From Whitmania pigra (Eukaryota; Annelida; Clitellata; Hirudinida; Haemopidae): a DNA stretch of 64,000 bases. This document shows, in pieces, positions 11,888 to 57,508 of the stretch. Position numbers and translations under genes: made by a program. Within the stretch, counting starts at the first letter, position 1, and the number at the start of each line of letters is the position of its first letter. Below the pieces are notes generated by a model, which saw only the letters and a list, made by a program, of their open reading frames with translations, was not told where the DNA came from and ran no database searches. The stretch spans positions 684,501 through 748,500 of the forward strand of contig JAJTWR010000448.1 in NCBI GenBank assembly GCA_021613335.1, read 5' to 3'.

Positions 11888-14400
11888 TGTTCAAAAAGTT
11901 TGTTTATGTCGTTAGGGAGGGCAAAATGTTAATTAGCTGTAGTTCGTTGGAGTGGATTGGAATTGTTTGTTTTCATTCCTGATTCAATTCTTGATGGCCA
12001 ATTGTCTTGAAACTTGCGGTAGTGTATCGGTTGTTATTATTACGTTATCATTAAATGGATACAAGCTGTTGTATGCTTGCTAATCTGTAAGTTTAAATGT
12101 ACTACTATGGTGATCTTAGTCATTGTTTAAGGAATATGTTCCAAATCTGAACACATATATTGTGGATCTGAATTTTTATCGATATATACGCAAAAACATT
12201 TTTATTTTACATTCCTGCACACCGACTTTAATGCGATGATGATGCCACTTAACCGAGGTCGTACGACTTTGTGCGTCCTCTGCAATCGAAGATACTTTTC
12301 ATTGGATTAGCTCATCGTGGAAGCGGATTTAAGAGCACCGGATGTAGTGCTTGTCGAACGCTTGCAGGAAGTATTTTACGGTTGCTCGAATGACTGAATG
12401 ATTGAATTTCGATTGGGATTTCGTCAATTTCTGAGGGAAAGTGCCAAAAGCCCTTGCATTTGTGACAATGATTGTTCTGCCTTTTGTAACAACATTACGA
12501 AGCGTTATTATTGGTTAATAAATGACTGACTAATATTATCCTTATTAGTGCCTGGAATCTTTGTTTAGTATTTTTATGTAATTAAGATAAATTGTCAGCA
12601 TAGGCCACGAGGCGGATAAGCTGCACAGTCATTGACAATTGCCCTCCTAATAATAATAATAATAATAATAATAATAGTAATAATAATAATTAATGACCAG
12701 TACATCACCTAGAATTTTGTTAATTATTATTCGTCTTTAATTCCATACATCGCTTGTACGACATTCATCTCTTTTCTGCTCTTCCAGCCGCCTTCTTGAC
12801 TCAGACGGTCGTCTTGGACGACACGACTGTGAAGTTTGAGATTTGGGACACTGCAGGCCAGGAGAGGTACCACAGCCTTGCCCCCATGTATTACAGGGGC
12901 TCCCAGGCAGCCATCATCGTCTATGACATCACAAACCCAGTTAGTGGATTGTTGCTCATTTTGATATGTGGAAATTGTTTTGTGAGATAAAGTCTTTTTG
13001 AAATACGAACTTCAAGGAATTTAAGAAATACCTTTATTACTTAAATTGATTATAACGATTAATTGATCTATTGCAATAGTTAATTGGCTCAATAATGAAT
13101 TTAATTGACATTTAATTGATTTATGGATTACAACAACAATCATCAAACTGAGGAGAATATTTGATCTTCACCAGGATACCTTCACAAGGGCTAAGAATTG
13201 GGTCAGGGAGTTGCAGAGACAGGCGAGTCCAAACATCGTCATGGCATTGGCTGGAAACAAGGCCGACCTGGCCCAGAAAAGGATGGTGGAATATGCTGTT
13301 AGTGGTGCTTTTTAGGCTTTTACCTTGTGTTCGTGGATTCGCTACAAAGTGATTGTTGCTCATTATAGTTACTAATTATAATTATCATTAATGCCTTCAA
13401 TTCGAGTTAAAGAATTACACTGTCCTCGGTGTAATTACTGTTATTATATTTACCACCTGTAATTTTAACATCAACACTTTTAATTGTTTGCATCATCTTA
13501 CATCAACATCATTACCATAACCTCTGAATCTTACATCAACATCATTACTATAACCTCTGAATCTTACATCAACATCATTACCATAACCTCTGAATCTTAC
13601 ATCAACATCATTACCATAACCTCTGAATCTTACATCAACATCATTACCATAACCTTTGAATCTGATGTAATCATCAGGAGGCGCAGCAATATGCAGAAGA
13701 AAACAACCTACTTTTCATGGAAACGTCTGCCAAGACGGCCGTCAACGTCAACGACATCTTCCTCGCCATCGGTAAGCCCCTCCCTTGAATAAGTTATGTT
13801 GATTATTATGAAATAAATTAGGTTAATTGCCTTGGAAAACTCCATGGAATCCATGATAACTTGAATAAGTCTTTAATTTGTTATTAATCATTTTTGATTT
13901 TTGACTACCTCAAATAATAAAGCATCCAGGTTCACCATAATCAATATCAGTAAATAAATTGTGATTCTTGTTTACGCATCATGATTCTGGAATTATAAAT
14001 CGTAATATTAGTTATGGGAATTAATATTAATTTTTTCTTTATGCTTTAACCAAGTACTTTACGGCTTGGTTTATAAATTTATTATTACTAATTATTATTA
14101 TTATTCTCAGCTTGTGAAGACTTGTGGATGCTATTTTTTGTTAAAACTTTCATTCTGTTAGTTATTAGTTATCAAGGTTTTAATCAATGAATATTAAAGT
14201 ATTAGTAAAAGATTAGTAGACATTATGTTAATCAATTCGACCACCATATTTTAATCAGTTCAACAACCATACGTCAACCATTTCTTTTCTCCCCATCAGC
14301 CCGAAAGCTTCCCAAAAATGATGCAAGCAAACAGCTTCGCCCTCAGGGCGTCAACTTGAACCAGGCCGACCAACCGGCTTCCAGCGGCTGCTGTAAATAA
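11657..14400 (+). CDS. RAB5: Rab5 GTPase (5 exons)
   Basis: Early-endosome GTPase controlling endocytic vesicle docking and fusion. Exons: 11657-11834, 12788-12939, 13175-13297, 13678-13771, 14300-14400, which join in frame to 215 aa, the length of human RAB5A. Motifs: P-loop GESAVGKSS, the effector region after QESTIG with the Rab5-typical [37 protein letters not shown], and a C-terminal GCCK with the two prenylated Cys. Human Rab5 ends CCSN, so the tail is one residue shorter than usual. Introns 2 and 3 use the donor GTTAGT, and no other in-frame choice exists. Intron 1 carries two (AAT)n tracts and intron 3 a 33-bp minisatellite. Confidence 0.97.
11852..11888. repeat. (AAT)n microsatellite in Rab5 intron 1
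   Basis: About 12 AAT units, only 18 bp after the Rab5 exon 1 donor. Confidence 0.95.
12648..12690. repeat. (AAT)n microsatellite in Rab5 intron 1
   Basis: About 14 AAT units with one AGT interruption, near the 3' end of intron 1. Confidence 0.95.
13495..13665. repeat. 33-bp minisatellite next to Rab5 exon 4
   Basis: About five copies of a 33-bp unit containing ACATCAACATCATTAC and ATAACCTCTGAATCTT, nearly identical to each other. The array ends 12 bp before the exon 4 acceptor, so the branch point and pyrimidine-tract region of intron 3 derives partly from the repeat. Confidence 0.93.
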
Positions 14401-30422: not shown

Positions 30423-30586
30423 AAACTTACCTGGCGTAGGTGGTAGCCGCGATCAAGGAGGCGGCTCGCCCAGGAGGAGGCTGATCCATTGCACCTCGGG
30501 TCGGCTGATGCCTGCGATTACCCCAAATGTGGGTAACTCGGGCGCACAATTTCTGAGTTTTGGGATTTGCGTGCGCGCATTTCCCG
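30423..30586 (+). ncRNA. RNU1: U1 snRNA gene A (possibly degenerate)
   Basis: 164 nt aligned over its whole length to metazoan U1. The 5' end has the canonical splice-site-pairing ACTTACCTG, the stem II loop has CATTGCAC (U1A site), and stem III with CCCCAAATGTGGG is intact. The Sm site is altered to ATTTCTG where the other copies have ATTTTTG. Stem IV has a TGCG loop. A 3'-box-like GTTTAACGAAGA follows the 3' end. The changed Sm site makes a stable snRNP doubtful. Confidence 0.9.
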
Positions 30587-31284
30587 ATGGTTTAACGAAG
30601 ATTAATATTTAATTTAGTATTTATGGTTTAACGTGGTTGTGCAGAATTTACTTTGATATATCTATAAATCAATACCTAATCATTTTTTTTGATGTAATAT
30701 GAATAATGACCTGGCAATATTCAAGACGAGAGCCACAACATGTTCACTCATCACAGAGAACATAATCCGAGTCAGCTAAACTTTCTCTTGGGTCTGTTTT
30801 TTTTTTAATTTAATAAAAATATTTGTAATTTAACATTTTATTATTAATAGTAAATATAGATATATGACTTTTACTTATTATGTCGCTCCAGCATGGGTCT
30901 AATTGTGTCCGGATTGTTTTAATCACTAGTTAAATCCAAGTTTATCAATAGATTACGATGGCGACAAGGATTCGAATCCCGTTGCTAATCGTTTGTAACG
31001 GACATATAATACATGTAATACATAACAGCATTTATAATTAAAATAAGTAGTTTGCATTAACAATGTTCGTCTTTGAATGTTTAGATTCTCAGAATACTGC
31101 ATTCTTCCAGTGATGGCAACATTCTTAGTGCGTCCTGTTCGCAACGCAAACGCTGGAAAATTCTTTGGTAAAAAAATCAACATAAATTGGTTAAAAATCT
31201 GCTGAGATTCAATGGCAATCTATTTAAAAACCTAAAGAATACAAAAGGATTTTGTATTTTCATAGATATGATAAAAACACACCG

Positions 31285-31302
31285 AACACCTCTGCCAGTG
31301 TA
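31285..31302 (+). promoter_or_regulatory. PSE-like box of U1 gene B
   Basis: AACACCTCTGCCAGTGTA starting 58 bp before the U1 start. Same AACACC core as the other copies. Confidence 0.65.
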
Positions 31303-31342: not shown

Positions 31343-31507
31343 ATACTAACCTGGCGCAGGTGATAGCCGTGATCACCAAGGCGGCTCGCCCAGGGGGAGA
31401 TTGACCTATTGCACTTGGGGTCGGTTGAACCCTGCGATTACCCCAAATGTGGGTAACTCGGGCGCATGATTTTTGAGTGTTGGGAGTTGCGTCCGCGCAT
31501 TTCCCTG
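31343..31507 (+). ncRNA. RNU1 variant: U1 snRNA variant gene B (A6 5' end)
   Basis: 165-nt U1. The 5' end reads ATACTAACCTGG: position 6, normally U (pseudouridine), is A. The rest of the RNA departs from the canonical copies but keeps every helix: stem I AGCCGT/GCGGCT, stem II with pairings remade by several changes (ATTGACCT against GGGTCGGT), the U1A loop ATTGCAC, stem III identical, Sm site ATTTTTG, stem IV capped by TCCG. The PSE-like box at -58 and TTTAAA-type 3' flank are present. It is predicted to be a functional U1 that pairs best with donors CAG|GTTAGT. Confidence 0.93.
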
Positions 31508-31810
31508 TGTCTTTAAAATAAATGTAACTGGTATTTGGATGGGTAGATCTAATGTGCACATACCGTTTTAAAGTATCGATGCTAAATTGTTATTCGTAAT
31601 ATATTCGCAGTTACTTCAAAATACTGACTCACTTATGAGCGATGCCTAAACAAATTAGCTTCATTACACTACATTCATTTCACATTGAATTGTAGAGTTT
31701 GAAAAAAAAAACGAATTATAACTGTAAATATTTTTTAGAAGAGCCAAATTTTTTCGTTTAGGCGATGTGCAGTTACTAATGCGGTTAAAATTCTCACTCA
31801 AATCATGAGA

Positions 31811-31828
31811 AACACCTTCGTTAGGATC
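31811..31828 (+). promoter_or_regulatory. PSE-like box of U1 gene C
   Basis: AACACCTTCGTTAGGATC starting 57 bp before the U1 start. Confidence 0.65.
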
Positions 31829-31867
31829 AGCCACGGCATACAAAACCTCTGTGATTCTGTATCGGTC

Positions 31868-32032
31868 AAACTTACCTGGCGTAGGTGGTAGCCGCGATCA
31901 AGAAGGCGGCTCACCCAGGCGGAGGCTGATCCATTGCACCTCGGATTAGCTGAAACCTGCGATTACCCCAAATGTGGGTAACTCGGGCGCATGATTTTTG
32001 AGTGTTGGGAGTTGCGTTCGCGCATTTCCCTG
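31868..32032 (+). ncRNA. RNU1: U1 snRNA gene C (canonical 5' end)
   Basis: 165-nt U1 with 5' AAACTTACCTGG, stem I loop GATCAAGAAGG, U1A loop ATTGCACC, Sm site ATTTTTG and a TTCG-capped stem IV. All helices pair. It is the first of three array units spaced 545 bp apart. Confidence 0.95.
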
Positions 32033-32355
32033 TGTCTTTAAATTAAATGTAATTGATATTTTTATGGTTGGATCTAATGTGCACATACCGTTTTGAAATG
32101 AAATGATAAATTGTTATTCGTAATATTTCCACAGTTATTTCAAATTACTGACTCATTTATGACCGATGCCTAATTAGGTTCATTACACTACATTCATTTC
32201 ACATTGAATCATAGAGGAGTTTAAAAAAAAAACGAATTATAAATTGTAACTGTAAATATTTGTTAAAAATTTTTTAGAAGAGCCAAATTATTTTGTTTAG
32301 GAAATTAATATGCGGTTACTAATGACTGGTTAAAATTCTCACACAAATCATGAGA

Positions 32356-32373
32356 AACACCTTCGCTAGGATC
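32356..32373 (+). promoter_or_regulatory. PSE-like box of U1 gene D
   Basis: AACACCTTCGCTAGGATC starting 57 bp before the U1 start. Confidence 0.65.
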
Positions 32374-32412
32374 CGCCACGGCATGCAAATGCTTTTTGAT
32401 TCTGCATCGGTC

Positions 32413-32577
32413 AAACTTACCTGGCGTAGGTGGTAGCCGCGATCAAGAAGGCGGCTCGCCCAGGCGGAGGCTGATCCATTGCACCTCGGATTAGCTGAAA
32501 CCTGCGATTACCCCAAATGTGGGTAACTCGGGCGCATGATTTTTGAGTGTCGGGAGTTGCGTTCGCGCATTTCCCTG
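32413..32577 (+). ncRNA. RNU1: U1 snRNA gene D (canonical 5' end)
   Basis: 165-nt U1 almost identical to gene C, with one visible change (TGTCGGGAG for TGTTGGGAG at the base of stem IV). Its 380-bp downstream flank reads the same as that of gene C, so units C to E arose by very recent tandem duplication. Confidence 0.95.
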
Positions 32578-32900
32578 TGTCTTTAAATTAAATGTAATTG
32601 ATATTTTTATGGTTGGATCTAATGTGCACATACCGTTTTGAAATGAAATGATAAATTGTTATTCGTAATATTTCCACAGTTATTTCAAATTACTGACTCA
32701 TTTATGACCGATGCCTAATTAGGTTCATTACACTACATTCATTTCACATTGAATCATAGAGGAGTTTAAAAAAAAAACGAATTATAAATTGTAACTGTAA
32801 ATATTTGTTAAAAATTTTTTAGAAGAGCCAAATTATTTTGTTTAGGAAATTAATATGCGGTTACTAATGACTGGTTAAAATTCTCACACAAATCATGAGA

Positions 32901-32918
32901 AACACCTTCGCTAGGATC
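32901..32918 (+). promoter_or_regulatory. PSE-like box of U1 gene E
   Basis: AACACCTTCGCTAGGATC starting 57 bp before the U1 start. Confidence 0.65.
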
Positions 32919-32957
32919 CGCCACGGCATGCAAATGCTTTTTGATTCTGCATCGGTC

Positions 32958-33121
32958 AAACTTACCTGGCGTAGGTGGTAGCCGCGATCAAGAAGGCGGC
33001 TCGCCCAGGCGGAGGCTGATCCATTGCACTTCGGATTAGCTGAAACCTGCGATTACCCCAAATGTGGGTAACTCGGGCGCATGATTTTTGAGTGTCGGGA
33101 GTTGCGTTCGCGCTTTTCCTG
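32958..33121 (+). ncRNA. RNU1: U1 snRNA gene E (canonical 5' end)
   Basis: 164-nt U1 like gene D until the last stem, where the 3' end reads CGCTTTTCCTG instead of CGCATTTCCCTG. The 3' flank differs completely from that of C and D, so the array unit breaks exactly at the end of the RNA. Confidence 0.94.
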
Positions 33122-33688
33122 GTTAGGAAACAAAGTTACAAAGCTTAGAGGTAGACGATCATTTCTACAGCTAGTAGATTAACAATCGGGACTTCGAAAG
33201 CACATCAATATTCATTCACTCGTATTCATAGCCATTTATACGAAATGTTGATAATAAATTTATGAGCTTATTAGTTATTATTATAAAAAAAAGCATTCAG
33301 TCCTATTCACCAGTTATGAGGTGGAAAATTACACCATGCCTGGCCACCGGACAAACACACCCATAAGTTGTTTAAATATTTGAACAAGCAATATGTTTAA
33401 TTGTGTATTACGCCATAAGAGTCAGGGGCGCTCAACCATTTGTATAGCGCCGCATCCTAAGGGCGCTTTGTGGCGTTGCAAGATGGGTCGGGAATACGAC
33501 TGTTGCTTTTACCGTCGTTTGAAGGCACGCTACCTCTCAGCTAACTTGCACTCCTTATCTCACAGCTATCAATTAATGAACAAATTTTTGTTCGAATAGG
33601 TTGTGAAGACACTATCAAAGAATGTTCCACCCTTTTTTTGCAATAAAAACTTAATGGTTCATTGCTTGGTTATAACATTATTGTAACA
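33122..33688. other. Intergenic spacer after the U1 triplet
   Basis: No gene recognised. Its far end carries the target site AACATTATTGTAACA of the next micro-insertion. Confidence 0.3.
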
Positions 33689-33747
33689 AAGTCCAAATCA
33701 TCTGAGTTATGCAACGGACTATAATCAAATAAATAAATAAATAAATA
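33689..33747 (+). mobile_element. Ultra-short non-LTR retrotransposon 3' end, copy 2
   Basis: 59-bp insert (AAGTCCAAATCATCTGAGTT ... CGGACTATAATCAAATAAAT with further AAAT units) bounded by a perfect 15-bp target duplication AACATTATTGTAACA (33674-33688 and 33748-33762). The tail repeat, variable target duplication and extreme 5' truncation are marks of target-primed reverse transcription. Confidence 0.85.
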
Positions 33748-33921
33748 AACATTATTGTAACATTGCATGGGCTTCTATTTACCATTCTCATTTAGAAATG
33801 TTAAATTTTTAAAAGAAATAAACTTTTAACAAAAATTTAACCAAAACATTTATTATTATTATTGTCATCGAATGGAAATGCACTCATATTTTAACTGAAC
33901 GCATTTATTAAATTATAAATT

Positions 33922-34751
33922 ATTAAATTTAACCTCAAAACTAAAAATCTCACGCCATTGGAATGAATTTATACCCTCTGTAATCGCAAAAAACAGCTTT
34001 TCTTCTAAATATATTTTAGGGCTGTACTCTATAATGTATAAAGTGTTGAAATGAGTCACAGCTGTTGGCAGATAATCGTCAGGATTTACATCAGACGATT
34101 TAAGACTTACTGTGAGTTTTGGTTCCAGAGCAGCCAAACCCCCAACTGGCAATCTTGGTGTGCTTGTTGCGAATTGCAGAAAACTTCTTTGATCGCTCGC
34201 AGATAGCGATGATAGAACTTCGAATAGGTACTGAACTACAGATGCGTCTGGGTCGATTTCATCAAGGACGGAGTTATTTTTCAGATATCCCACGGTCCAT
34301 TGTTCTTTAATAAAACCGCAAAATATTTGATCGTATTCGTGAGGGTAGAAGTAACGCACGAACCAATGACTGACACGACTGACTACAAGACCAAATCCAT
34401 TACGAACTTCTTTTATACTGTTATGGGGGTTCTTGTACAACACCCACCAGGTGAGCAACTTCAGGTATTTTCCAGGTTGTCAATGCTTAATAATACTTCG
34501 CTTCCACCCTCCTCCATCTCGACCTCTGGATAACCTGGAAGCGTGAAATTTACGCAGAGATCTTCAAAAGAACAACCATCGCACCCTATTTTGGACATGG
34601 CCTGCACTTTCTCTTCAACCGAAAGTGTTTCATTGCTCTCGATGCTCCATTTTTCTCTCAAGGCATTCACGAGACTTTCGACAAAATTATAAATGGATGG
34701 CATCACGTACTTGACATCGACGAGCGAAAGTTGCTGAGCATTGATGAACAA
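33922..34751 (-). pseudogene. HECT E3 ligase pseudogene, TRIP12/UPL3-like
   Basis: Encodes most of a HECT domain of TRIP12 type: CSFEDLCVNFTLPGYPEVE, EEGGSEVLLSIDNLE, then HWFVRYFYPHEYDQIFCGF, FLQFATSTPRLPVGGLAALE and VNPDDYLPTAVTHFN. One base is missing after the 'NLE' codons (near 34461), which shifts the frame so that the two halves lie in different frames. The catalytic Cys of the family's 'TCVNYLKLP' is His here (THFNTLYII). No introns, no upstream domains. It is therefore a processed, catalytically dead remnant sitting between U1 genes E and F. Confidence 0.87.
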
Positions 34752-35133
34752 ACATTTGATGTGATTATTTTACATTTAATTTAGTTTTTTAATTTTTACA
34801 ATAAATTTTATTGAATTGTTTTGATGAGTTTTATGTTTTGACGGGGTTGTTTTGGAGGAGCTATTAGGACGGGGTGCCCAATTTTCAATTTGACAAGAGT
34901 TTTAATAATAGTTTCTGTTGATTTAAAAGTTTAGGGTTTTTATTCTTGTTGTTCCAGTAATGGCAACATTCTTAGTACGTCCTGTTCGCGACGCAACGCT
35001 GGAAAAACCTTTTAAAGAAACTCTACATAAATTGGTTTTAAAAAAATCTGCTGAGATTCAATGGCCATCTACTTAAGAACCTAAAGAATACGAACAGAAT
35101 TTGTATTTTCATAAATATACATAAAACACGCGG
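34752..35133. other. Duplicated flank of the variant U1 gene
   Basis: From about 34950 the sequence is a diverged copy of the region before gene B (from about 31105: CCAGT(A/G)ATGGCAACATTC, CGTCCTGTTCGC). So genes B and F were duplicated together with at least 200 bp of upstream DNA. Confidence 0.8.
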
Positions 35134-35151
35134 AACACCTCTGCCAGTGTA
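35134..35151 (+). promoter_or_regulatory. PSE-like box of U1 gene F
   Basis: AACACCTCTGCCAGTGTA, the same as gene B, starting 58 bp before the U1 start. Confidence 0.65.
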
Positions 35152-35191
35152 GATTAGGCTAGACAAAAGCTATGAAAACGCATGAGACGAC

Positions 35192-35356
35192 ATACTAACC
35201 TGGCGCAGGTGATAGCCGTGATCACCAAGGCGGCTCGCCCAGGGGGAGATTGACCTATTGCACTTAGGGTCGGTTGAACCCTGCGATTACCCCAAATGTG
35301 GGTAACTCGGGCGCATGATTTTTGAGTGTAGGGAGTTGCGTCCGCGCATTTCCCTG
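35192..35356 (+). ncRNA. RNU1 variant: U1 snRNA variant gene F (A6 5' end)
   Basis: 165-nt U1 variant with 5' ATACTAACCTGG, matching gene B throughout except two visible substitutions (A in the stem II loop end, A at the base of stem IV). All helices, the U1A loop, the Sm site ATTTTTG and the TCCG tetraloop are kept. A second intact locus with the same A6 argues against a chance mutation. Confidence 0.93.
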
Positions 35357-35812: not shown

Positions 35813-35976
35813 AAACTTACCTGGCGTAGGTGGTAGCCGCGATCAAGAAGGCGGCTCACCCAGGCGGAGGCTGATCCATTGCACCTCGGATTAGCTGAAT
35901 CCTGCGATTACCCCAAATGTGGGTAACTCGGGCGCATGATTTTTGAGTGTTGGGAGTTGCGTTCGCGCATTTCCCG
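35813..35976 (+). ncRNA. RNU1: U1 snRNA gene G (canonical 5' end)
   Basis: 164-nt U1 with 5' AAACTTACCTGG, close to gene C, with a 3' end CGCATTTCCCG and a new 3' flank. Genes F and G mirror the order variant-canonical of genes B and C, as if the pair was duplicated around the HECT pseudogene. Confidence 0.94.
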
Positions 35977-36527
35977 GTTGAGAAGTAAAGTTATAAATTG
36001 TAATGGTAGAGCTAGACTGTCACTTTTACATCTCGTTAACAATCTTCACTTCCTAAGCACATCTGTAAATTGATCATGTTCATAGTATTGTACCTTATCC
36101 GAAATCTCGCTAATAGAGTTCGGAAGAAAGTCTGATATACTCATTAGTCCTTCGGTAATTGAATTGCAATGTAATGTATTTATCTGAACAAGATTATAAT
36201 TTAGATAAATATCATCACACTTTGAGAACCGCTGCTTTAAGATATTTCAATAATTGTCAATATGTTATTTCATTAATAAACTTTACAATAGAAGCAACTA
36301 ATAAGAATAAAATAGGGGCATCAGTAACTGTGCCAATGGTACTTGTAATTTAAAATTTTGATTAAATAAATTTATAAAATACTTTTAATCATGCATCTAA
36401 ATGACATATTCATAATCTTTCATTGGTTTTTTAGAAACTCTTTCAAAACAATAACATTCTGTTATATTAAAGAATTCTACATTATATCATACAATTTGGA
36501 ACAATTCCAATTGAACTAAAATCAGTT
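35977..36527. other. Spacer between the U1 array and CCDC97
   Basis: AT-rich, no gene recognised. Its right end should hold the CCDC97 promoter and 5' UTR. Confidence 0.35.
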
Positions 36528-39743: not shown

Positions 39744-42090
<2,347 letters not shown>

Positions 42091-47453: not shown

Positions 47454-47992
47454 GATAGAACAAGCGAATGGCCTCACATACCACAAAAGTCCTGACAAGC
47501 AACAATACAACAACTTGTTGAAGCGGAACAAGGTGAGCGTGACAAAAAAATTGGCCAGGTAATTTCTGCTAAAGATTGTGACATGATCTGTCAAAACCTG
47601 GCACAACTGATGAGATATCGCTGATAGAACGGAGTATTCCACCGATGCTTACCTTTCTGTCGTTGTAGCGCAACAATGTTATAGGTTTTCAGGTGGTGGA
47701 ATATTTAAATACAAGTTTACTAATATTTAGTAATTACCTTTTTTCAAATAATAACATGTTTGTTCGTGATAAAATCAGTGGCATTTGTGCTGGTTCACTT
47801 ACATTGGCTACTTCGGATTTTTACAATTTAGAGATAAAATTTTTCACGAATAAAAATTTATAATGAATACTTAGACTTTTTTATTAACTTCATGATATCT
47901 CACGACGCAAATGATCGAGAGACTCTATAACCGTTTTACAACAATAAGTAAAAGTTAGAACTTTAACACTTTTTAAAAATTTATTGCTTACC
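47454..47992. other. Upstream flank of DUF4211-like gene 1
   Basis: No gene recognised. Presumed promoter and 5' UTR, AT-rich. Confidence 0.35.
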
Positions 47993-50539
47993 ATGGATGA
48001 AATACTTAGCCTGACTCCAGGACAATTAGTGATGATTGACAACATCACTTACATGACTCTCGAAGCAGAGGATGGATCTATAGTTTTGCAGGAGGTGTCA
48101 GATTATCAACAGATCGTCGACCAAACAGGAAATACTTTTCCGACATCGTTTTCGAAAGACGAAGATCAAAATTCAAATTTGGAACAGTCACGCATACCCG
48201 TTGATCTGAGCATTGCAAGTCTCCAACTGCAAGATATTAACACGACGATAATGGATACTAATCAATGCGTTTCGACGCAGCAAACCGCGAGTACATTGCA
48301 AGATGCATTGGTAACAAATGCGCGAAACCAGGCGTCCATTTTTTCTCATGATTCAAACGCTGTCCAAACATTTTCGGACCACGCAACCGTAGGTGAACAG
48401 ACTCGCTTTGAAATGGACTGTCAAATCCAGCAGAAAAATTCAATGGCGGTACCGAATGATGCCAATTCGTTGCCTACAGAAAACCTTTCCCAAACACCAA
48501 CAATAGATGACAATAGACAGGAAGTATTAGCTTTTATTAAAGACTTACAAAATCGCGGTTTCGTTCTTGATCAACCGACTATGAATATTCTTTTGAACGG
48601 CGAAGTGCGCCTAACAGACTTGCAAATTGTTTATGACACGGGTTTAAATGAAAAAGTCGAGGGTACAGCCAATATTGAATCTAAGAAACCCACAGAAAGA
48701 CACAGTAAAACATTTAAACAATGTGATGTTCGTGTTATAAACATCGAAGAAGATGAAGAATTTTTATTCCTTAGAAATTGTAAGTCTAGCGAAACAAACA
48801 ATACTGATAGTTCAATAAGCCCTAAAAGGCAGCCTGCATCAAATGGTTACCTCCAGGTTTATCTCAGTTTTGTAGAGTCATTCAGGTCGGATATATCCTA
48901 TGACAGGGTCCTCGATTCTGAAATGGTGATGGATACTAACCAACATGTTTCGATGCAACAAACCGAGAATACATTACAAGCTACATTGGTGCCCCTAGCT
49001 CAGCCGGTTGGGAAATTTAATGAGAGGGTTAATGTAGCGGAAAATAAAAGGGTTGAGATACCACCCCACAACGCCAGTGGATATCCATCAAGAGGGAGGA
49101 GTCGTGATGGTATAAAACATATTGTCCATAACTCGTTTCAGAAACGAAAGTATAGTGAAGATGATAGCGATTACGTCTTCGAAGATCCAAGTTGGAATCT
49201 CGGTAGTGGTGGAAATCCCATCCTGTCCAAGAGAGGAATGGGCCGTTCTAGAAGATTTGGACGTAAGGAGCGCTATGATTCTGACGAGGATTATGTGTAC
49301 GATGAGTCTGAAGACGAAAGCGATATTTCAGTTGAAAGTTTGAACAGGGCGATCGTCGAACGATCGAGCTATCGCCACAATAAGACAGCCGATGAACAAA
49401 CTTTTCCAAACGACCGCGTTTTAATCCAGCCTCACAGCCAAAAAGCTCACAGGGGTAGAGGTCGTCCAAGAAAAATTATTTTACCAGAACCTTATCAGGA
49501 ACGTCATCCAGAACCAGGAGAAGTGCTTTACGCATCACTCGGTGATGTGCACACGTACCAAATTGGTGATTTCGTTGTACTTAGAACCGATTTGTTCCAG
49601 AGTGCCGACTTTAACATATATCTCAGGAAAGAACCAAACGTACTGGTAGTTTACAATTCATTTAGAGAAGGTGACAAGATCCTTCACAAAGGCACTAAAT
49701 TGCACGTGGGCATCGTTGGAGACATTCGCATCAGTTACAAAGCTGTACAAGTCGAACAGGTGACAGAATTGAATAAAAAAACGATCTACGACATCGTCGA
49801 GGCTAAAATGCCACCAGTTAATCTGTATGGAAACATCGACGTCAATGAGGATGATCCTGTAAGAGTCATATTCGTTGTTTTTATTCAAGTCCTTTGTTGT
49901 CAGAACCTTGAGAAAAACTTTATGAACGAGATCATGTCAGGAAAATATGAACATTTGTACGATCCCCTAAAGCAGTTAGAAGAGATCATCAAGCACGGCC
50001 TGATCGGTATCCAAAATAAAATAGCCTGGAATCCGGTTTTCATAGAGACTATGAACACCTCGCCATTTTACAAGATTTACAAAATGAATGTAGAAAGGTC
50101 TCATGCTCGTTACGTGTGCAATGAGGTCAACGATACCGGTTTGAGTGCAAACAGGTTTATCAAATTCTTCGGTCCGCATTATAACTACGACACTTTAGAA
50201 AATACTGTTCCAGAGCAAGCAAACGATCGAAAGGATGCTCCCCTAGATCTGGAGTCAGTGCATCCGACCTTATATCTTATTAACCAGTCATCAGTCGAGC
50301 ACATTGTAAATTATCATGCTTTGCGCCACTACAAAAAGTCCATATTTACGGAGTTGGGGTTTATTTTGGAAGATAAGAGGCGAAAAGACTCTGAGAAACG
50401 AAAATCAAATACTGATCTTGTTGTTGAGACACTTTCGGATTGTAATTTGATGAATTACCAACTGAATTTATTCAAAGAGATTATTCTCAAAGCGGACATT
50501 ATGCTTGAAGTGACTGCGAATTTAGACCAAAGTCTTTAA
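47993..50539 (+). CDS. AT-hook protein with DUF4211-like C-terminus, long form 1
   Basis: 848 aa, intronless, starting at ATG 47993 (MDEILSLTPGQLVMIDN, aligned with MDELIGLTPGQM of gene 2). The N-terminal ~60 residues form a conserved 'LTPGQ..M.D...Y.TL..EDGSI.LQEV' module. A 35-residue helical module (about 175-210: EVLAFIKDLQNRGFVLDQ, MNILLNGEV) occurs once. NIEEDEEFLFL (about 250), then a Ser/Asp-rich stretch with SDEDYVYDESEDESD and an AT-hook GRGRPRK (about 488-495). Residues about 505-795 resemble DUF4211 of QSER1/PRR12/TNRC18/CCDC82: FGPHYNYDTL and the NYHALRHYKKSIFTEL helix match the family's '(S/Y)G..Y...TL ... YH.L.HFKY.L' pattern. Zinc-type Cys of that family are mostly missing. 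Nuclear, DNA-binding role is inferred. Confidence 0.6.
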   Translation: MDEILSLTPGQLVMIDNITYMTLEAEDGSIVLQEVSDYQQIVDQTGNTFPTSFSKDEDQNSNLEQSRIPVDLSIASLQLQDINTTIMDTNQCVSTQQTASTLQDALVTNARNQASIFSHDSNAVQTFSDHATVGEQTRFEMDCQIQQKNSMAVPNDANSLPTENLSQTPTIDDNRQEVLAFIKDLQNRGFVLDQPTMNILLNGEVRLTDLQIVYDTGLNEKVEGTANIESKKPTERHSKTFKQCDVRVINIEEDEEFLFLRNCKSSETNNTDSSISPKRQPASNGYLQVYLSFVESFRSDISYDRVLDSEMVMDTNQHVSMQQTENTLQATLVPLAQPVGKFNERVNVAENKRVEIPPHNASGYPSRGRSRDGIKHIVHNSFQKRKYSEDDSDYVFEDPSWNLGSGGNPILSKRGMGRSRRFGRKERYDSDEDYVYDESEDESDISVESLNRAIVERSSYRHNKTADEQTFPNDRVLIQPHSQKAHRGRGRPRKIILPEPYQERHPEPGEVLYASLGDVHTYQIGDFVVLRTDLFQSADFNIYLRKEPNVLVVYNSFREGDKILHKGTKLHVGIVGDIRISYKAVQVEQVTELNKKTIYDIVEAKMPPVNLYGNIDVNEDDPVRVIFVVFIQVLCCQNLEKNFMNEIMSGKYEHLYDPLKQLEEIIKHGLIGIQNKIAWNPVFIETMNTSPFYKIYKMNVERSHARYVCNEVNDTGLSANRFIKFFGPHYNYDTLENTVPEQANDRKDAPLDLESVHPTLYLINQSSVEHIVNYHALRHYKKSIFTELGFILEDKRRKDSEKRKSNTDLVVETLSDCNLMNYQLNLFKEIILKADIMLEVTANLDQSL

Positions 50540-51157
50540 CTGCAAGATATTAATTTTTTTTTTTTTTGATAATGTTGCTATAAAGTGTTTGTTTATTTAA
50601 TGCCAGAAGTTTGTTTTGTCTATATTTTTAGTTTTTGGGAAAGGAGAAATATTATTTAGCAAAGTTATAGACAAATTTTAATCTAGAACAATAACATGGC
50701 CCAGTCTTAATTTGTCACATAGATGCAATTTCGAGTCAAACTAATTATTTTTAAATCATTAAAGAATGGATGCTTATTATAAAATGTCATTTTCGTGGTT
50801 TGAACTTCGCTGGCGATAATAAACATTCGTTCTAAATATCACTTATGTGGCAACTTTCTTTAGTCATTTTAAAAATAAATTAAAATTAAATTATTAATAA
50901 AATGTGTCCATAAATTGCTATTTTAAGGTGTAAAATAAGAGTTTCAGAATTTTTAATTCGTTTAGTTCATTTAGATGCTTTTTATTTTTATTTTTACAAA
51001 TTACAAGCAAATTTTATTTTAAAATGCCGATCCAAAGTCATTATCTTTTTATTCAGATGTTACCTCGCAACATTAAATTAGTAACCTAACGCTAAAATCA
51101 TATAGTTATAGTGTAACTTTTACCGGTGGTACAATAATATTTTGTTTGAACCAAAAC
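50540..51157. other. Spacer between DUF4211-like genes 1 and 2
   Basis: AT-rich, no gene. It contains the 3' UTR of gene 1 and the promoter of gene 2, so the two genes are not one transcript on present evidence. Confidence 0.35.
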
Positions 51158-53881
51158 ATGGATGAACTAATCGGCCTCACTCCTGGCCAAATGGTGATTA
51201 TGGACGGCGTCAAATACGTGACTCTTCAAACAGAAGATGGATCTATTGCTTTACAAGAAGTTCAAGATTTTCAGCAGGTAATCGAGCCGAACACGAATAC
51301 ATTGCCGACGTATTACTCGAATGACGAAGCAAAAATTTCAGGACTTGACGAGTCGCACATACCCGTCGACCTAAGCCTAGCAAATCTTCAACTGCATAAT
51401 GCTAATACGACGACGGATGCATGCACTGACCATTCTGTTTTTAATCAACAAAACGAGAGTATATTTCAGGGTTTGTCGACGGAAAATATGCAAAATCAGG
51501 GTTCGAATGTCGTTCCGATGTTTTCGGATCAGGCTGTCGCAGAAGAACGAGAGCGCTTATCAATGCTGGACCAAATCCAACAGGCTACAATGCCAAAAAC
51601 TAGTGCCCCGGTCGTGAATAATGTTAATATGCTGGCTAGTGAAAAACTTTCGGAGGCATCGACAGGGGGAAACAGTAAGCAAGAAATATTAGACTTTATT
51701 CAAAACCTGCACAGTCGTGGCTATATTCTCGATCAAGACACAACCAATCTTCTGATGAATGGCGAAGTGAGCATATCAGATTTCCCAGATCTTGACGACC
51801 CTGGTTCGAATCAAAGGCAAGAAGCCTCAGTTAACGATTCAAATAATTCCCAACACTTTTCATACCAGCCAGTCGACGATTCACATGCTCAGAGATCAAA
51901 TGAAACTCATGTCCACCCAATAAGTACAGTGCCAGAAAACCTTCAGATTCAGAACAGTGACAACTGGCAAGCTGGTGTAGACCTTAACCAAGCAACGTCA
52001 ACAGCAAATCTGGAGAAGAAACAAGAAGCATCACTTCTCATTCAGAACTTACAAAGTCGTGGCTTAGTCTTAGATCAAAATACAATAGATTTATTGATGA
52101 GCGGTGAAGATTATCAATTAGTTGACGAAACAGGATTGCCTCTAAATTTCGAACAAACGACCAACATTGAACCTCTTGGCTCTGTAAATCAAAAGGATGT
52201 TAATTTACCCCCAAAGGCTCAAGTTGTTGTTAAAAACATCGAAGAAGACGAAGAATTTTTACTTCTTAAAAGTCACGACTCACACCAAGGCGAAGACGCC
52301 AGCGTGCCAATCATTCCTGAGAGGCAGCCGGTATCAAGTGCTTATCAGCAGGCTTACCTCAACTTTGTGGATGGATTCAAGTCGGATACATCTTATGACA
52401 AGGTTCTTGATTATAAAACGGCAGCTCAGCCGGTGGGTCAATTTACGTTAGATGATAGAGATGGCACATTGTCCTACTTCGACAGAGCACCATCATCGAG
52501 AGGAAGAGGTCGTGGCGGTGCAAAGTATAATGCCAACGGCTACATTCAGAAACGGTGGAGTATGGAAAATGAAAATGTCTACGGAGATCCACGATGGAAA
52601 GGCTCTGAACATTCTATAAGATCAATGACGTCTAATGTCAGAGCACCTGCCAAGAGAGGAGTCGGTCGTCCCAGAGGTTCTGGACGCAAGCAACTCGAAA
52701 CGTTATCTGACGACGACTTTGATACTGACGATTTCGAATCAGACGAAGATTCTGATTATAGCGGTGGCAGCTGGAATAGGGGAAGGCGAGGCCGACGTAT
52801 CGACGTAAAGAAAACAGACCGTTCTTTTACAAACAATCGATCATCGGTACAATCTCAAGGCCAGAAGGGCCGCAGAGGTCGCGGACGTCCAAGGAAAAAT
52901 GTTTGGAGAGACCATCACCCCGATCATGGAAAAGTGGTTTTTGCTTCGTTGGGCGATGTACACAGCTACGAGGAAGGCTGTTTTGTTATCTATAGAACTA
53001 ATTGGCTACAGGATGGATTGTTCAACATACTTGAAATCTGCGAGAAGTCTCTCATGAAGGTTTATAAAGCAGTTGTAGAAGACAACGAAGTTATTTATAG
53101 AACCCAAAACAGCTACCATTTGAGTAATATTGACGTGCGCATTTGTCACAAAGCTATCGATGTAGAACATTTGCCAGAAAAAAATGCCGTCAAGCCTAAA
53201 ATTCCACAAGTCTGGAACATTGAAAATCTAGAGAACGACCCATTGATGAGCATCTTCAATGTTTTTATTCATGTCCTTTGCTGCCAGAGTCTTGATGAAA
53301 ATTACTTTCTCGAGATCATGTCAGGTAATTATGAGCATTTGTATGGTCCATTGAGGCAAATCGATGAGATCATCAAGGAATGTCTCATATCGATCCAAAG
53401 TAAAATAACCTGGAATCCGCTTTTTAGAGAGTCTATGGACTCACTACGATTTTATAAAATTTACAACATGACTCGACGACCCGATGTTCATTATCTGTGC
53501 AATGAAATTGACGACCCTAATCTGAGGGCCAACATGGTCATCCAATTTTTCGGACCGAGATACAATTACGATACTCTCAGAGATGAAATTGTACAAATTG
53601 GTGGTACTGGACAACAGAGAGAAATTGAATATTTTATTAATAGCTCATCGGTCGAGCACATTCGGAATTACCACGCTTTGCGCCACTTCAAAATCACCAT
53701 ATTCAAGGAATTGCGGTACATTTTGACGAATAGGCAACTGACCAACAAGGACAAATCTAATGAAGAACATATTCAGGGGGCACTTTCGGATAATAAGTGG
53801 ATGAATTTCTATCTCGGTACATTTAAAGAAATGATTCTCAAAGCAGATGTTATACTTGAAGTGGCTCCTTCCCAAGAATAA
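51158..53881 (+). CDS. AT-hook protein with DUF4211-like C-terminus, long form 2
   Basis: 907 aa, intronless, starting at ATG 51158. Same plan as gene 1 and clearly paralogous along the whole length. N-terminal LTPGQ module; the 35-residue helical module twice (about 171-208: EILDFIQNLHSRGYILDQ; and about 283-321: EASLLIQNLQSRGLVLDQ). Then KNIEEDEEFLLLKS (about 363), AT-hook-like KRGVGRPRGSGRK (about 498-509), a Ser/Asp acidic block, and a second AT-hook RGRGRPRKN (about 572-580). The DUF4211-like part (about 588-855) has FGPRYNYDTL and NYHALRHFKITIFKELRYIL. A poly(A) signal AATAAA lies at 53925, 44 nt after the stop. Relative to gene 1 it has gained an extra helical module. Confidence 0.6.
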   Translation: MDELIGLTPGQMVIMDGVKYVTLQTEDGSIALQEVQDFQQVIEPNTNTLPTYYSNDEAKISGLDESHIPVDLSLANLQLHNANTTTDACTDHSVFNQQNESIFQGLSTENMQNQGSNVVPMFSDQAVAEERERLSMLDQIQQATMPKTSAPVVNNVNMLASEKLSEASTGGNSKQEILDFIQNLHSRGYILDQDTTNLLMNGEVSISDFPDLDDPGSNQRQEASVNDSNNSQHFSYQPVDDSHAQRSNETHVHPISTVPENLQIQNSDNWQAGVDLNQATSTANLEKKQEASLLIQNLQSRGLVLDQNTIDLLMSGEDYQLVDETGLPLNFEQTTNIEPLGSVNQKDVNLPPKAQVVVKNIEEDEEFLLLKSHDSHQGEDASVPIIPERQPVSSAYQQAYLNFVDGFKSDTSYDKVLDYKTAAQPVGQFTLDDRDGTLSYFDRAPSSRGRGRGGAKYNANGYIQKRWSMENENVYGDPRWKGSEHSIRSMTSNVRAPAKRGVGRPRGSGRKQLETLSDDDFDTDDFESDEDSDYSGGSWNRGRRGRRIDVKKTDRSFTNNRSSVQSQGQKGRRGRGRPRKNVWRDHHPDHGKVVFASLGDVHSYEEGCFVIYRTNWLQDGLFNILEICEKSLMKVYKAVVEDNEVIYRTQNSYHLSNIDVRICHKAIDVEHLPEKNAVKPKIPQVWNIENLENDPLMSIFNVFIHVLCCQSLDENYFLEIMSGNYEHLYGPLRQIDEIIKECLISIQSKITWNPLFRESMDSLRFYKIYNMTRRPDVHYLCNEIDDPNLRANMVIQFFGPRYNYDTLRDEIVQIGGTGQQREIEYFINSSSVEHIRNYHALRHFKITIFKELRYILTNRQLTNKDKSNEEHIQGALSDNKWMNFYLGTFKEMILKADVILEVAPSQE

Positions 53882-54748
53882 AGACATAAAATTCTGTATC
53901 AGACCTTTGTGACCTTTTCGATTAAATAAAGTTACTACACAACTTGTTTCTGTCTCAAATGCGAAATTTATTCTGATAATTGAAAGTTGTAAACACAGCG
54001 TGATGACCTTGTAAAGGCAGCGATGCATTTATGTCTTTAGGGTCACGGCAAATTCACCGCCGGATATTTCATCGATGGAAAAATGCATCGTCCGGAAAAT
54101 CCGTCTCCGGAAATTCAAAGGCTTTATGAGAAAATAAATGATTATATAGGCATTTATACAATATTTATATTTATATATAAGATAGCCCCTTAGAATAAGT
54201 TTAAACAGAAATTGCATGCACAATGTGTATGCGGCATCCGATTTTTTGAAATAATAAATAAAAATAATAAATTAAAAATATATAAGTAAAAGAAATCAAA
54301 CAATTTGTTATTTGTTGTGTGTATTAATCAGAATCTTAGAAGCGAGGCTCCAATAACAACATTCAGCTTCAGTTCAGAACATGATGCTCGATCACACGAC
54401 ACATCGCTCAAATCGTATTGATTCTCAATTTGAAGAAAACTGCAAGAACAATAATATATAATAATATATAATAATATACAACATATATGCTTCTGATCAA
54501 AAGACTGGACGATCTGAGCAACAGGCAGGACTTGATGGGGGTCTGGTGATTCTCTTTGAACTAAGAATCGTATATGTTGTGCATCGATTGTGTTTGGACA
54601 ATTCTGAAAAGCTAATGTGTTTTTAAAGCATGACACGATGTATTTGATTTTTGTTTTATTAGCTAAAACTTATTCAAAAGGACAAAGTAGAAAATGATTA
54701 CATTAAATATCTTTCAAAATAAACAAAAAAAAACATGTAATAGAGCTA
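53882..54748. other. Convergent 3' region between long and short DUF4211-like genes
   Basis: Contains 3' UTRs of two convergent genes. A minus-strand stretch (54500-54636) reads protein-like (AQHIRFLVQRESPDPHQVLP) but is short and unrecognised. Confidence 0.35.
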
Positions 54749-56296
54749 TTACGCTTTATCTGTTACAATGATATCAATATCTATCCCGCAAGACAGCAAA
54801 ACATGTGAGAGTTGTCCATAAAAGTGTCTTATTCTCGACATATTATCCATTACCTTGGTTAGGATTTCTGCGCCGCAGTATTTCTTGGAAATTTGTCTCA
54901 TTGCAACCTCTTTTTGGCAGTCTTGGAATAAGTGATATTTGTAATGACGTACAAAATGATAGTTAATTGCAAGGCTTAGTTCGGAATCACTTAAGTACCA
55001 CAGACTCCCTTCGCCACTCGATGCGTTGTTTGGACCAGTACTAAGTGTCTGACAGTCGTAACAAGGCCCGTACAGACTCAAGCATTTGGTAGCAATGTCG
55101 GTCGGGTCGTTTCTGGCTTGGCAGCAAATTAAATTCTGAGACGAAGGCATCACCAATGAGGATACCGTATAGCATGGGAATGCGTCCAAAACTTTTCTAA
55201 AGTTTGAATCCCACTGAGTTTGTGATGCGATAAAATCCTGAGCTTTTGCTAAGATTGAATCAATTTGGTTCATCTTGTCTAAATGATATTGTGTTTCGTC
55301 TTTTTCAATCAAGTTTAAAAAAGTATTGTCAATGGCATGACTGACTAGGCACTGAACGTAGGACCATAACATCTGGACAACTGGTGAGTCGTTTAGGCTT
55401 TCATCCAAAACTTCTGGAGAAAGGATGTTTTTAAAGGAAACTGCACTCTCATCCGCCTTCTTTACTTTGATGGGTACGTATTCGTTTGCTATATTCTCAA
55501 CACCTCTATGTTTCTTCGTGCTTCTAAAAATGTTCGCATTGACTGGCATTGGCTCGAACTTTACCAGCATCTTGTTGTCATTAATTTTCCAAATGTTGAA
55601 ATTATCGGATTTGTACATGTTTTCTCTCTCTAAAACAAATCGTCCCTTTTCGTAGTTATGGACTGTCTTCGGAAATGAGTAAAGAACTTTGTCTAATTTA
55701 GGCTGGAAAACATCGTTTGTTACGATTTTCTTCGAACGGCATTTTTTCGATTGGACATTTTTCTTGCTTTTAATTCCACGGTTTCCTATCCACGTGTCTC
55801 CAGAACTAGACGTATCAGAATAGGTCTCTTCGCGTGCTTCGTAGACATATTCTTCATCTGAACTACTTCTTGTCCTCTTTTCAACATTCTTCGTCAAGAA
55901 CTGTTTCGCGGTATGTCCAACTTCTAGAGGCACTTCAAACGACGGTACCATTTCCTGTGCACTCACAGGGTGAAATGTGGAGGGCCACTGGAAAGAAACA
56001 CCAGTTTCGGGCAGGGCTAACGGTGTCAGCTCTGCATAAATCTTTTGATTTTCGGTTGACAGTTGATCATGTTCAAGGTCTGATGTGTTATAAATTAGTT
56101 CTCCATTTATCTGTATGTTATCTGGAAACAATTGTTCCTTAAAAAACTGATGTTCTATGGAGCCTTCAGCAGAAGTTACTAGGACCACCCCATCGTCCAC
56201 CGTTCTGTCCTTGTTGGTTTGTTTTATGCTGATGACGCAGTCACTTATGTCGATGCCGGTTTGTTTAATGAGGTTGAGAAGTTCTAATTCGTTCAT
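54749..56296 (-). CDS. DUF4211-like protein, short form 1
   Basis: 515 aa, intronless. N-terminal module MNELELLNLIKQTGIDISD with SAEGSIEHQF, a different head from the long genes. A Ser/Asp patch SSSDEEYVYEAREETYSD (about 144-161) matches the SDEDYVYDESEDESD of long form 1 and is followed by a Lys-rich stretch instead of an AT-hook. The C-terminal part (about 202-475) is the better DUF4211 match in this cluster: FNIWKINDNKMLVKFEPMP, a central helical bundle, LICCQARNDPTDIATKCL, SLYGPCYDCQTL, and INYHFVRHYKYHLFQDCQKE. It keeps the Cys pairs lost in the long forms. Function unknown; nuclear role inferred. Confidence 0.62.
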   Translation of the reverse strand: MNELELLNLIKQTGIDISDCVISIKQTNKDRTVDDGVVLVTSAEGSIEHQFFKEQLFPDNIQINGELIYNTSDLEHDQLSTENQKIYAELTPLALPETGVSFQWPSTFHPVSAQEMVPSFEVPLEVGHTAKQFLTKNVEKRTRSSSDEEYVYEAREETYSDTSSSGDTWIGNRGIKSKKNVQSKKCRSKKIVTNDVFQPKLDKVLYSFPKTVHNYEKGRFVLERENMYKSDNFNIWKINDNKMLVKFEPMPVNANIFRSTKKHRGVENIANEYVPIKVKKADESAVSFKNILSPEVLDESLNDSPVVQMLWSYVQCLVSHAIDNTFLNLIEKDETQYHLDKMNQIDSILAKAQDFIASQTQWDSNFRKVLDAFPCYTVSSLVMPSSQNLICCQARNDPTDIATKCLSLYGPCYDCQTLSTGPNNASSGEGSLWYLSDSELSLAINYHFVRHYKYHLFQDCQKEVAMRQISKKYCGAEILTKVMDNMSRIRHFYGQLSHVLLSCGIDIDIIVTDKA

Positions 56297-57508
56297 TATT
56301 TTGGAACGCTGTTGTTAGTATTATACAATAACTAACTGATATTTCGATATTTTTTTTTCTTTTTCGGTCTCTGATGGGATTGAATTAATTAATTAATTGT
56401 CTGTTAGTTGGTAGCCCGTATCATCAAAAAGATTATGAATAATAGCTTAACCTAATTTTAAATTAAATTATTAACATCAAATTTTACTGTTTTATTATAT
56501 TAAAAACAAATAAATTTACAAATAAATTTATATACTACCTTGGTTCGATGATCTTCAACAACATTCTTCTTCATAACAATAAAAACATTTGTGCTTCACT
56601 GCACTCTCCTCTTTATTCTGTTTGGAGACCCCAAATCCTTTATGCCATCCTGCATTAGTAACTGCCTCACAAATTCTACTGTAGTGTCTTGTCGGGAACA
56701 AAGGCCATTCCGGGATTACAAACTCTACAAATTTTAAACTCAAAACACTCGAACATCGACGCCTCATCCATGATTTATGCCTCAGTCATAAAATATTACA
56801 CAACTTCACCATCCTCATATTCCCCGATTTCATGTTGTCTCGCACACGTGGTCTTAACCACAATCCACGGTAAGAATGTTGCTACATTTCTTCAACCGAA
56901 TCGCGAAATCCTGGAAATCTCCGCCCTTAGATATTATCAGTTCCATAAGTCATAGTAGATTTAAGGTCTGCATTTTCAACATTGATTTAAAAAAAGTTTC
57001 TAACAATTTAATGGCGTAAATTTTGTCTATGTGCTCTATGTGTGCAGATTAACTGACTCCAATTTGTGTTAGTGGTCGCCTATGATCCTCCTTTTGGTTG
57101 AAATAAATAAACAAATAAAAAATATATATATTCCATCTTTGAAACCATTGTTCATACATTTCCATAGATAATTGATTTTAATTTTATACTTGAGAAATCT
57201 AATAGCTGATTAGGAGTATATTTAGTAAAACTCGAATTACATCCGCATAATATAAATTTTCATAATAATTAATAAAATTAACATCGAATTGATAAATAGG
57301 CGATTCAACTCACCAACTCAAAAATGTGTCAAACCAATACGTTTTTTTAAACAAATAAATAAAACAAAACAGCAACATCCTATATTTGGTTTTTAAGTTT
57401 ATTTGCTAACACTGATGTAAAAATTAAAAAAAATTTAAAATTTAAAAATTATTATGCTAAATATTTTTCATTGAAAAATGTTTTAGCGCCAATCCGTAAA
57501 ACAATAAA
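56297..57508. other. Spacer between the two short DUF4211-like genes
   Basis: AT-rich. Open frames 56555-56767 (-) and 56689-56955 (+) overlap each other and have no recognised domain. Upstream flanks of the two short genes are alike for about 40 bp before the ATG (TTTTGGAACGCTGTTGT), showing that the duplication included the 5' UTR. Confidence 0.4.

Follow-up and report, generated by a model that had tools for sequence, protein, structure and literature searches.

Dispersed U1 snRNA genes with an altered donor-reading 5′ end in Whitmania pigra, in whose sampled introns U is common at donor position +3

How can a genome change the rule by which its splice donors are read without breaking thousands of introns? 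This old question is raised by a stretch of DNA from the annelid Whitmania pigra (NCBI GenBank assembly GCA_021613335.1, contig JAJTWR010000448.1, positions 684,501 to 748,500 of the forward strand), which is termed the window here and was analysed at its full length of 64,000 nucleotides. The window contains a cluster of genes for U1 small nuclear RNA (snRNA), the 5′ end of which is among the most conserved of eukaryotic sequences. In the standard numbering of U1, nucleotide 6 faces intron position +3, and in two of the clustered genes this nucleotide is A in place of U. Because of that facing position, an A at nucleotide 6 would pair with a donor that has U at +3 (U+3). Here, we focus on the genes of this type, named the A6 class, in the window and across the genome, and on the donors that they may read. 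The A6 class is dispersed over the genome, keeps the structure of a U1 gene and occurs together with an abundance of U+3 donors in the introns sampled, a combination that may reflect a functional second U1.

Seven full-length U1 loci lie on the plus strand within 5.6 kb of the window. Each matches model positions 1-166 of the Rfam U1 family (RF00003), and all seven score above the cut-off (130.8-139.9 bits against 69.5).

31343-31507, plus strand: U1 snRNA gene of the A6 class, starting AUACUAACCUGG; RF00003 137.2 bits, full length, 5′ end read directly.
35192-35356, plus strand: U1 snRNA gene of the A6 class, starting AUACUAACCUGG; RF00003 139.9 bits, full length.
30423-30587, plus strand: U1 snRNA gene of the main class, AAACUUACCUGG; RF00003 130.8 bits.
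31868-32032, plus strand: U1 snRNA gene of the main class, AAACUUACCUGG; RF00003 137.9 bits.
32413-32577, plus strand: U1 snRNA gene of the main class, AAACUUACCUGG; RF00003 136.6 bits.
32958-33122, plus strand: U1 snRNA gene of the main class, AAACUUACCUGG; RF00003 139.2 bits; its 3′ flank, which was read, is unlike those of its neighbours.
35813-35977, plus strand: U1 snRNA gene of the main class, AAACUUACCUGG; RF00003 138.6 bits.
31284-31290, plus strand: GAACACC, the PSE-like box upstream of the A6 gene at 31343; the ACACC position is conserved among U1 loci.
35133-35139, plus strand: GAACACC, the PSE-like box upstream of the A6 gene at 35192; the ACACC position is conserved among U1 loci.

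The original prediction, made from the letters of the window, had placed A at nucleotide 6 in the loci at 31343-31507 and 35192-35356 and U in the other five copies, and both its coordinates and its sequence were right. Its description of the two variants also holds: both have the stems, the AUUGCAC loop, an AUUUUUG Sm site and a UNCG tetraloop (here UCCG), the changes in stem II relative to the neighbouring genes preserve pairing, and the promoter box lies where it had been reported. The GAACACC box upstream of the two A6 genes is what we take to be the proximal sequence element (PSE). At the gathering score, no Rfam family other than U1 matches the window loci, U11 (RF00548) included. The A6 class has ACUAACCUG in place of the usual U1 5′ end ACUUACCUG, and the other sequence features of U1 are present; judged by their sequence, the A6 loci are a U1 variant and not standard U1. 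The exact complement of the A6 end AUACUAAC is GUUAGUAU.

The assembly that contains the window (178 Mb in 381 contigs) was surveyed in two ways. An Rfam census gave at least 42 U1 loci (42 scored, of 2270 first-look candidates), spanning 115.1-156 bits. Five forms of the first 12 bases occur among these listed loci: AAACUUACCUGG in 18, AUACUUACUUGG in 16, AUACUAACCUGG in six, and AUACUUACCUGG and AAACUUACCUUG in one each. A broad pattern, in which nucleotides 2, 6, 9 and 11 were free and the other 5′-end bases, G17, G18 and GAUCA were fixed, and which is blind to U1 ends altered at the fixed bases, matched the genome 66 times against 0 in a reversed control. One match, C21:2447191, was excluded as its sequence is not U1-like. 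The remaining 65 U1-like matches, 23 of which stand outside the Rfam list and are known from their matched 31-33 bases alone (three of these on contig C350), comprise AAACUUACCUGG 37 times, AAACUUACUUGG once, AUACUUACUUGG 19 times, the A6 end six times, and AUACUUACCUGG and AAACUUACCUUG once each. Nucleotide 6 is U in 59 of them and A in six, and is never C or G, as is also the case in the 42 Rfam-listed loci.

A pattern restricted to A6 found six matches, with 0 in the reversed control, and these are the same six loci as on the Rfam list. They are spread over four contigs and all exceed the Rfam cut-off (131.7-148.4 bits), which disposes of the idea, raised as a check on the original prediction, that A6 copies might be confined to one decaying array. 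Three of them, the two window genes and C369:490123, lie on contig C369. The four A6 loci beyond the window, each found by both Rfam and the A6 pattern, are as follows.

C110:2113406, minus strand: A6 U1 locus.
C184:2411012, plus strand: A6 U1 locus.
C332:435690, plus strand: A6 U1 locus.
C369:490123, minus strand: A6 U1 locus.

Among the 42 Rfam-listed copies, nucleotides 2, 6 and 15 set the A6 class apart from the main class. Further main-class pattern matches, on C34, C43, C188, C218, C222 and C293, have C at nucleotide 15 like the A6 genes, so that only nucleotides 2 and 6 separate the two classes genome-wide as far as seen.

Other features of the U1 gene set came to light in the same survey. 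The main class (37 loci, including the window genes at 30423, 31868, 32413, 32958 and 35813) starts with AA, not the usual AU, and one locus with AUACUUACCUGG was found besides it; the AU start of U1 is reportedly tuned to the cap-binding complex. A further class, termed U9, carries a C to U change at nucleotide 9 and accounts for 19 of the U1-like pattern matches, 17 of them in one array. A U9-only pattern gave 20 matches, one of which (on C358) lacks G17-G18 and falls outside the 65. The U9 array is a tandem one at C350:118392-124846, with 17 U1 loci starting AUACUUACUUGG at a spacing mostly near 385 bp. A second tandem array, at C34:229745-233497 and recognised by pattern matches alone, has 11 main-class U1 ends near 365 bp apart on a different body.

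Intact structure is a feature of the A6 class as a whole. In a structural alignment of 23 of the 42 Rfam-listed copies, all six A6 genes among them, the AUUGCAC loop (the U1A loop) is invariant, and at 13 of 43 predicted pairs both sides have changed with pairing kept in at least one of the aligned sequences. The Sm site of the A6 copies is AUUUUUG in five and AUUUCUG in one. Upstream, ACACC is found at -57 or -56 in 39 of the 42 Rfam-listed loci and in five of the six A6 loci; the exceptions are C184 (an A6 locus), with AUACC at -57, C169, with a shifted form, and C350:122504, with none. The usual loop I, GAUCANGAAG, is retained in the A6 copies of C110, C184 and C332, three of the six; outside the A6 class, the alignment holds one other exception to it, the window gene at 30423, which has GAUCAAGGAG.

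The three A6 genes on C369 are identical to one another at 162-163 of 165 bases, while their flanks have diverged to 80-86% identity upstream (300 bp aligned) and 65-73% downstream (200 bp). The main-class pair at 31868 and 35813 is similar in pattern (gene 163/165, upstream 209/260, downstream 112/176), and the main-class genes at 31868 and 32413 are recent copies, with a downstream identity of 200/200. Across contigs, A6 bodies without their first 12 bases are 70-78% identical and their 12-base ends are identical. In a maximum-likelihood tree built from the bodies of the 42 Rfam-listed loci, starred branches (100/97 and 98/95) join the A6 copies on C110 and on C332 to other classes from the same contig, and the A6 copies of C369 and C184 are unplaced. 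A single A6 clade is rejected: the constraint costs 65 log-likelihood units (approximately unbiased test, p = 3.7e-6). There were therefore several gains of the A6 end, or a single gain with losses in neighbours, or an exchange of the 5′ end among copies. Whichever origin applies, the unusual end has persisted on several U1 backbones.

Donors were surveyed with a spliced aligner that demands AG acceptors, takes GT donors or, with a penalty, GC donors, and has no further donor preference; human proteins served as templates. The survey comprises 60 introns from 23 genes: from the window, Rab5 (4 introns), ARF (5) and glycogen phosphorylase (18), the last of which extends into locus L045, and a further 33 introns from 20 small-GTPase spans elsewhere. 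These spans were picked from Ras-family matches for their compact layout. Sampling was not random, and a single gene contributes 18 of the introns. For none of the 60 introns is there an equivalent GT-AG pair at a shift of up to 8 bases. When the chosen donor was blocked, the margin over the next solution was at least 5 in 58 introns and at least 8 in 54. Two of the 60 donors are GC, and the second introns of L077 and L078, on which the templates agree poorly with one another, were kept. The U+3 donors of Rab5 and ARF in the window, found by spliced alignment, are given below, with a slash at the exon-intron boundary.

12940-13174, plus strand: Rab5 intron 2, donor CCA/GUUAGU (U+3), margin 16 over the next solution.
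13298-13677, plus strand: Rab5 intron 3, donor GCU/GUUAGU (U+3), margin 5.
41141-41767, minus strand: ARF intron 2, donor UUG/GUUAGC (U+3), margin 44.
40565-41030, minus strand: ARF intron 3, donor CAG/GUUCGG (U+3), margin 47.
39831-40110, minus strand: ARF intron 5, donor ACC/GUUAGU (U+3), margin 15.

The original prediction had named introns 2 and 3 of Rab5 and introns 2 and 5 of ARF as having U+3 donors, and all four were recovered as such; ARF intron 3 lies beyond its list. It had also named amphiphysin intron 1, for which the best alignment, a low-scoring one, gives the donor GUUAUU; since the template was too distant, the 7 introns of amphiphysin were all removed ahead of counting. No gene with a usable template was found in the 40 kb beside the window or in 60 kb of C184, and zero introns were counted from there. 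An unsupervised gene finder (a coding-hexamer model with GT donors and a donor matrix blind to +3) was also set aside: it recovered most of the verified introns, though with many implausible ones, and its donors went unused.

In well-studied animals U+3 makes up a few per cent of donors, although nematodes may be higher. Among the 60 introns the base at +3 is A in 16, C in three, G in 20 and U in 21, and at least one U+3 donor occurs in 14 of the 23 genes, which makes U+3 common in this sample. The U+3 donors are split between the window (8 of 27 introns) and the spans elsewhere (13 of 33), and stricter subsets give 20 of 54 (margin at least 8) and 20 of 58 (GT donors). A count of 21 in 60 has p = 6e-13 against an expectation of 5% and p = 0.006 against 20%. 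The usual minor-intron start, GUAUCC, has A at +3, which excludes it for all 21 U+3 donors. Uridine is commoner at +3 than at +4 (10/60, p = 0.036) or +5 (8/60, p = 0.010), the latter two being well below the intron level of U, and C is depleted at +3 (3/60 against 0.13 expected, p = 0.04). This is the pattern expected if A, G (by wobble) and U can be paired at +3 and C cannot. A usual donor consensus is MAG/GTRAGT (PMC12480690).

Were U+3 donors bound by ordinary U1, they would be expected to match it better at their other positions. The mean number of matches at -2, -1, +4, +5 and +6 (out of 5) is 3.10 for U+3, 3.06 for A+3 and 3.20 for G+3 donors; U+3 donors thus carry no extra matches at the exon end, where the original prediction had suggested looking for compensation, or elsewhere in the donor. 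In a fixed-register energy model, with plain U in place of pseudouridine, the mean for U+3 donors is -3.8 kcal/mol opposite the main U1 end and -6.8 opposite the A6 end, while the main end gives -6.4 with A+3 and -8.0 kcal/mol with G+3 donors. The A6 end is strictly best for 16 of the 60 donors, all of them U+3 (16/21), and for no other donor. The gain in pairing follows in part from the definition of A6; what is informative is that U+3 donors are not stronger at their remaining positions. The U9 end came out best for 10 donors, most of them without A at -1; this was judged an artefact of mismatch terms, and nothing is claimed from it. A at -1, the base expected to suit the U9 class, occurs in six of the 60 donors.

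We put at roughly 0.53 the probability that A6 serves as a second, functional U1 at U+3 donors, about one-third of the sampled introns. Duplicated U1 genes would have acquired the change at nucleotide 6, and with the resulting A6 small nuclear ribonucleoproteins (snRNPs) donors could drift to U+3 without loss, while the main U1, with U at nucleotide 6, would keep serving A+3 and G+3 donors. The donor code at +3 would then have widened from purine to A, G or U, read by at least two U1 5′-end classes. What carries this reading is the observed structure, dispersion and retention of the A6 genes, the donor frequencies of the sample and the absent compensation; the A6 genes would have to be expressed, and their RNA assembled into snRNPs and actually paired with U+3 donors. 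Of the original prediction, which saw a functional U1 specialised for U+3 and complementary to GUUAGU donors, the part resting on dispersed loci and on common, uncompensated U+3 donors is supported. The narrower tie to GUUAGU is weaker: full GUUAGU donors number four in 60 and GUUAGC one, and most U+3 donors are of other forms.

Several further observations weigh against a second U1, and some of them speak for relaxed recognition, whereby the spliceosome of an AT-rich genome, aided by U6, U1-C or LUC7, tolerates U+3 opposite normal U1, and A6 is a rare or silent form spread by duplication. Intron interiors consist of U 0.39, A 0.33, G 0.15 and C 0.13, and the U+3 share of 0.35 is close to this level of U, which leaves relaxed constraint without A6 viable. 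The donors are also loose elsewhere (non-A at +4 in 27/60, non-G at +5 in 18/60, non-G at -1 in 17/60), and spliceosomes in general draw, besides U1, on U1-C, LUC7 and U6, which tolerate mismatches. The excess of U over C at +3 relative to intron composition is not significant (p = 0.12). The A at +7 expected as the partner of nucleotide U2 of the A6 U1 is found in 12 of 21 U+3 donors and 14 of 39 others, a trend (p = 0.095). Word counts in 213 kb, with U1 ends masked, were too noisy for a main test: AGGTTAGT (2 against 4.7 expected) and AGGTAAG (13 against 15.2) show no enrichment, while AGGTGAG is enriched (31 against 13.9) and GTTAGT slightly so (109 against 85). Six A6 genes among about 65 U1-like loci are, finally, a small share for a third of donors, although the level of an snRNA need not follow its gene number. 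Against relaxed recognition stand the depletion of C+3, as for other mismatches, where U+3 shows none, together with the higher U at +3 than at +4 or +5; the U+3 donors without compensation; and the recurrence of A6, with an intact 5′ end, on several U1 backbones. We regard this alternative as the main rival, plausible but less likely than a second U1.

Decay and exchange among copies offer a different account, in which the A6 loci are pseudogenes that owe their common 5′ end to gene conversion. Copies within arrays do have similar bodies, and there has been exchange of flanking sequence: downstream of the A6 gene at 31343, the 3′ flank (31508-31707) matches that of the main-class gene at 31868 (32033-32232) at 170 of 194 positions and those of the other A6 genes at 95/131 and 110/168. 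Since it is closer to a main-class flank than to other A6 flanks, sequence has moved within the array, and gene conversion could account for part of the conservation of the C369 A6 genes. On the body tree the A6 label needs four changes, at least three of them forced by starred branches, against a mean of 5.6 for shuffled labels, 22 of 500 of which were as low; it is hardly less scattered than shuffled labels, and a single gain of A6 with later losses is possible. Moreover, the three C369 A6 copies, both window genes included, have GAUCACCAAG in loop I where GAUCANGAAG is usual, and because loop I, the binding site of U1-70K, is altered, these genes could assemble less well. These observations again count against a functional second U1. 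Yet A6 copies retain paired stems, the Sm site and the AUUGCAC loop, the promoter box at -57 is exact in five of six loci, the C369 genes are far better conserved than their own flanks, and nucleotide 6 is never C or G, all of which makes this account highly improbable. A last alternative is that A6 U1 is expressed for another task, such as protection from early polyadenylation or a role at a germline or embryonic stage, and that U+3 donors are incidental. Precedents are a planarian U1 variant with an altered 5′ end (C to U opposite -1) that is enriched in stem cells (PMC6312358), and U1 isoforms of fly and mouse that shift during development (PMC4291461). The donor counts already supply possible targets, and we consider another task unlikely; by analogy, stage-specific use of A6 or U9 in this genome is possible.

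Natural and engineered U1 variants provide a frame for a second U1 that reads U+3. In laboratory suppressor U1 snRNAs, U1 bases are changed to match a mutated donor and pairing is restored; here the change is natural and dispersed, and the matching donors are many. The nearest natural systems compare as follows. U1C1 and U1C2 of the planarian Schmidtea mediterranea likewise combine a U1 fold with one changed base in the donor-reading 5′ end, and their change is the same as that of the U9 class; they are expressed in the planarian, and the A6 class differs from them in that it reads +3 rather than -1 and has many matching donors in the sample (PMC6312358). Human variant U1 snRNAs are diverged paralogues beside standard U1, as here (PMC5159530, PMC13172311). 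In Drosophila several U1 genes differ in sequence and stage of use, but the differences G134U and G123C fall in or near the Sm site and not in the donor-reading end (PMC10645366, PMC4291461). Fritillaria borealis is another animal with donors that break the usual rule; its U1 5′ end is reported to be strictly preserved, and the change is ascribed to U2AF paralogues and N6-methyladenosine (m6A), while here it is the U1 5′ end that has changed (PMC13326754). No nucleotide-6 U1 variant class was found in searches of one library of open-licence PubMed Central papers, as judged mainly from listings and passages, and mention elsewhere is possible. Variant U1 genes are a known kind; within the literature so covered, a +3-reading class spread over a genome with abundant matching donors did not turn up.

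Other observations concern the remaining splicing machinery and the surroundings of the U1 genes. U6 with ACAGAGA is present (locus L041), and the genome list holds three U11 loci, separate from the window loci, so that a minor spliceosome probably exists. The A6 end AUACUAAC is similar to the branch-point consensus, and six-base pairing between it and UAGUAU of U2 (L037) could occur; a contact between A6 U1 and U2 through this sequence is possible. Elsewhere in the window, positions 6021-7262 and 7924-9165 on the minus strand hold a tandem pair of nearly identical open frames of 413 residues, and positions 47948-59086 hold tandem large unbroken frames of 521-934 amino acids, one of which has relatives in public records that carry Pfam PF13926. 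One window protein that was searched has four relatives, at 99, 63, 44 and 39% identity. Four long unbroken COX1 frames, on C115, C49, C360 and C47, probably mark bacterial contigs within the assembly.

A broader and more tentative proposal, to which we give somewhat less than even odds, is that the U1 classes act as 'isoacceptors' in the manner of tRNAs, the main class (U at nucleotide 6, C at nucleotide 9) serving A+3 and G+3, A6 serving U+3 and U9 serving A at -1. Donors would have drifted into the widened code, and a change in the U1 gene set would thus have altered a splice-site rule genome-wide. The change appears to be carried by extra gene copies, which add a reading class rather than replace one, and the matching donors are already common. 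If this is true, natural variation in U1 would be a mechanism by which the splice code evolves.

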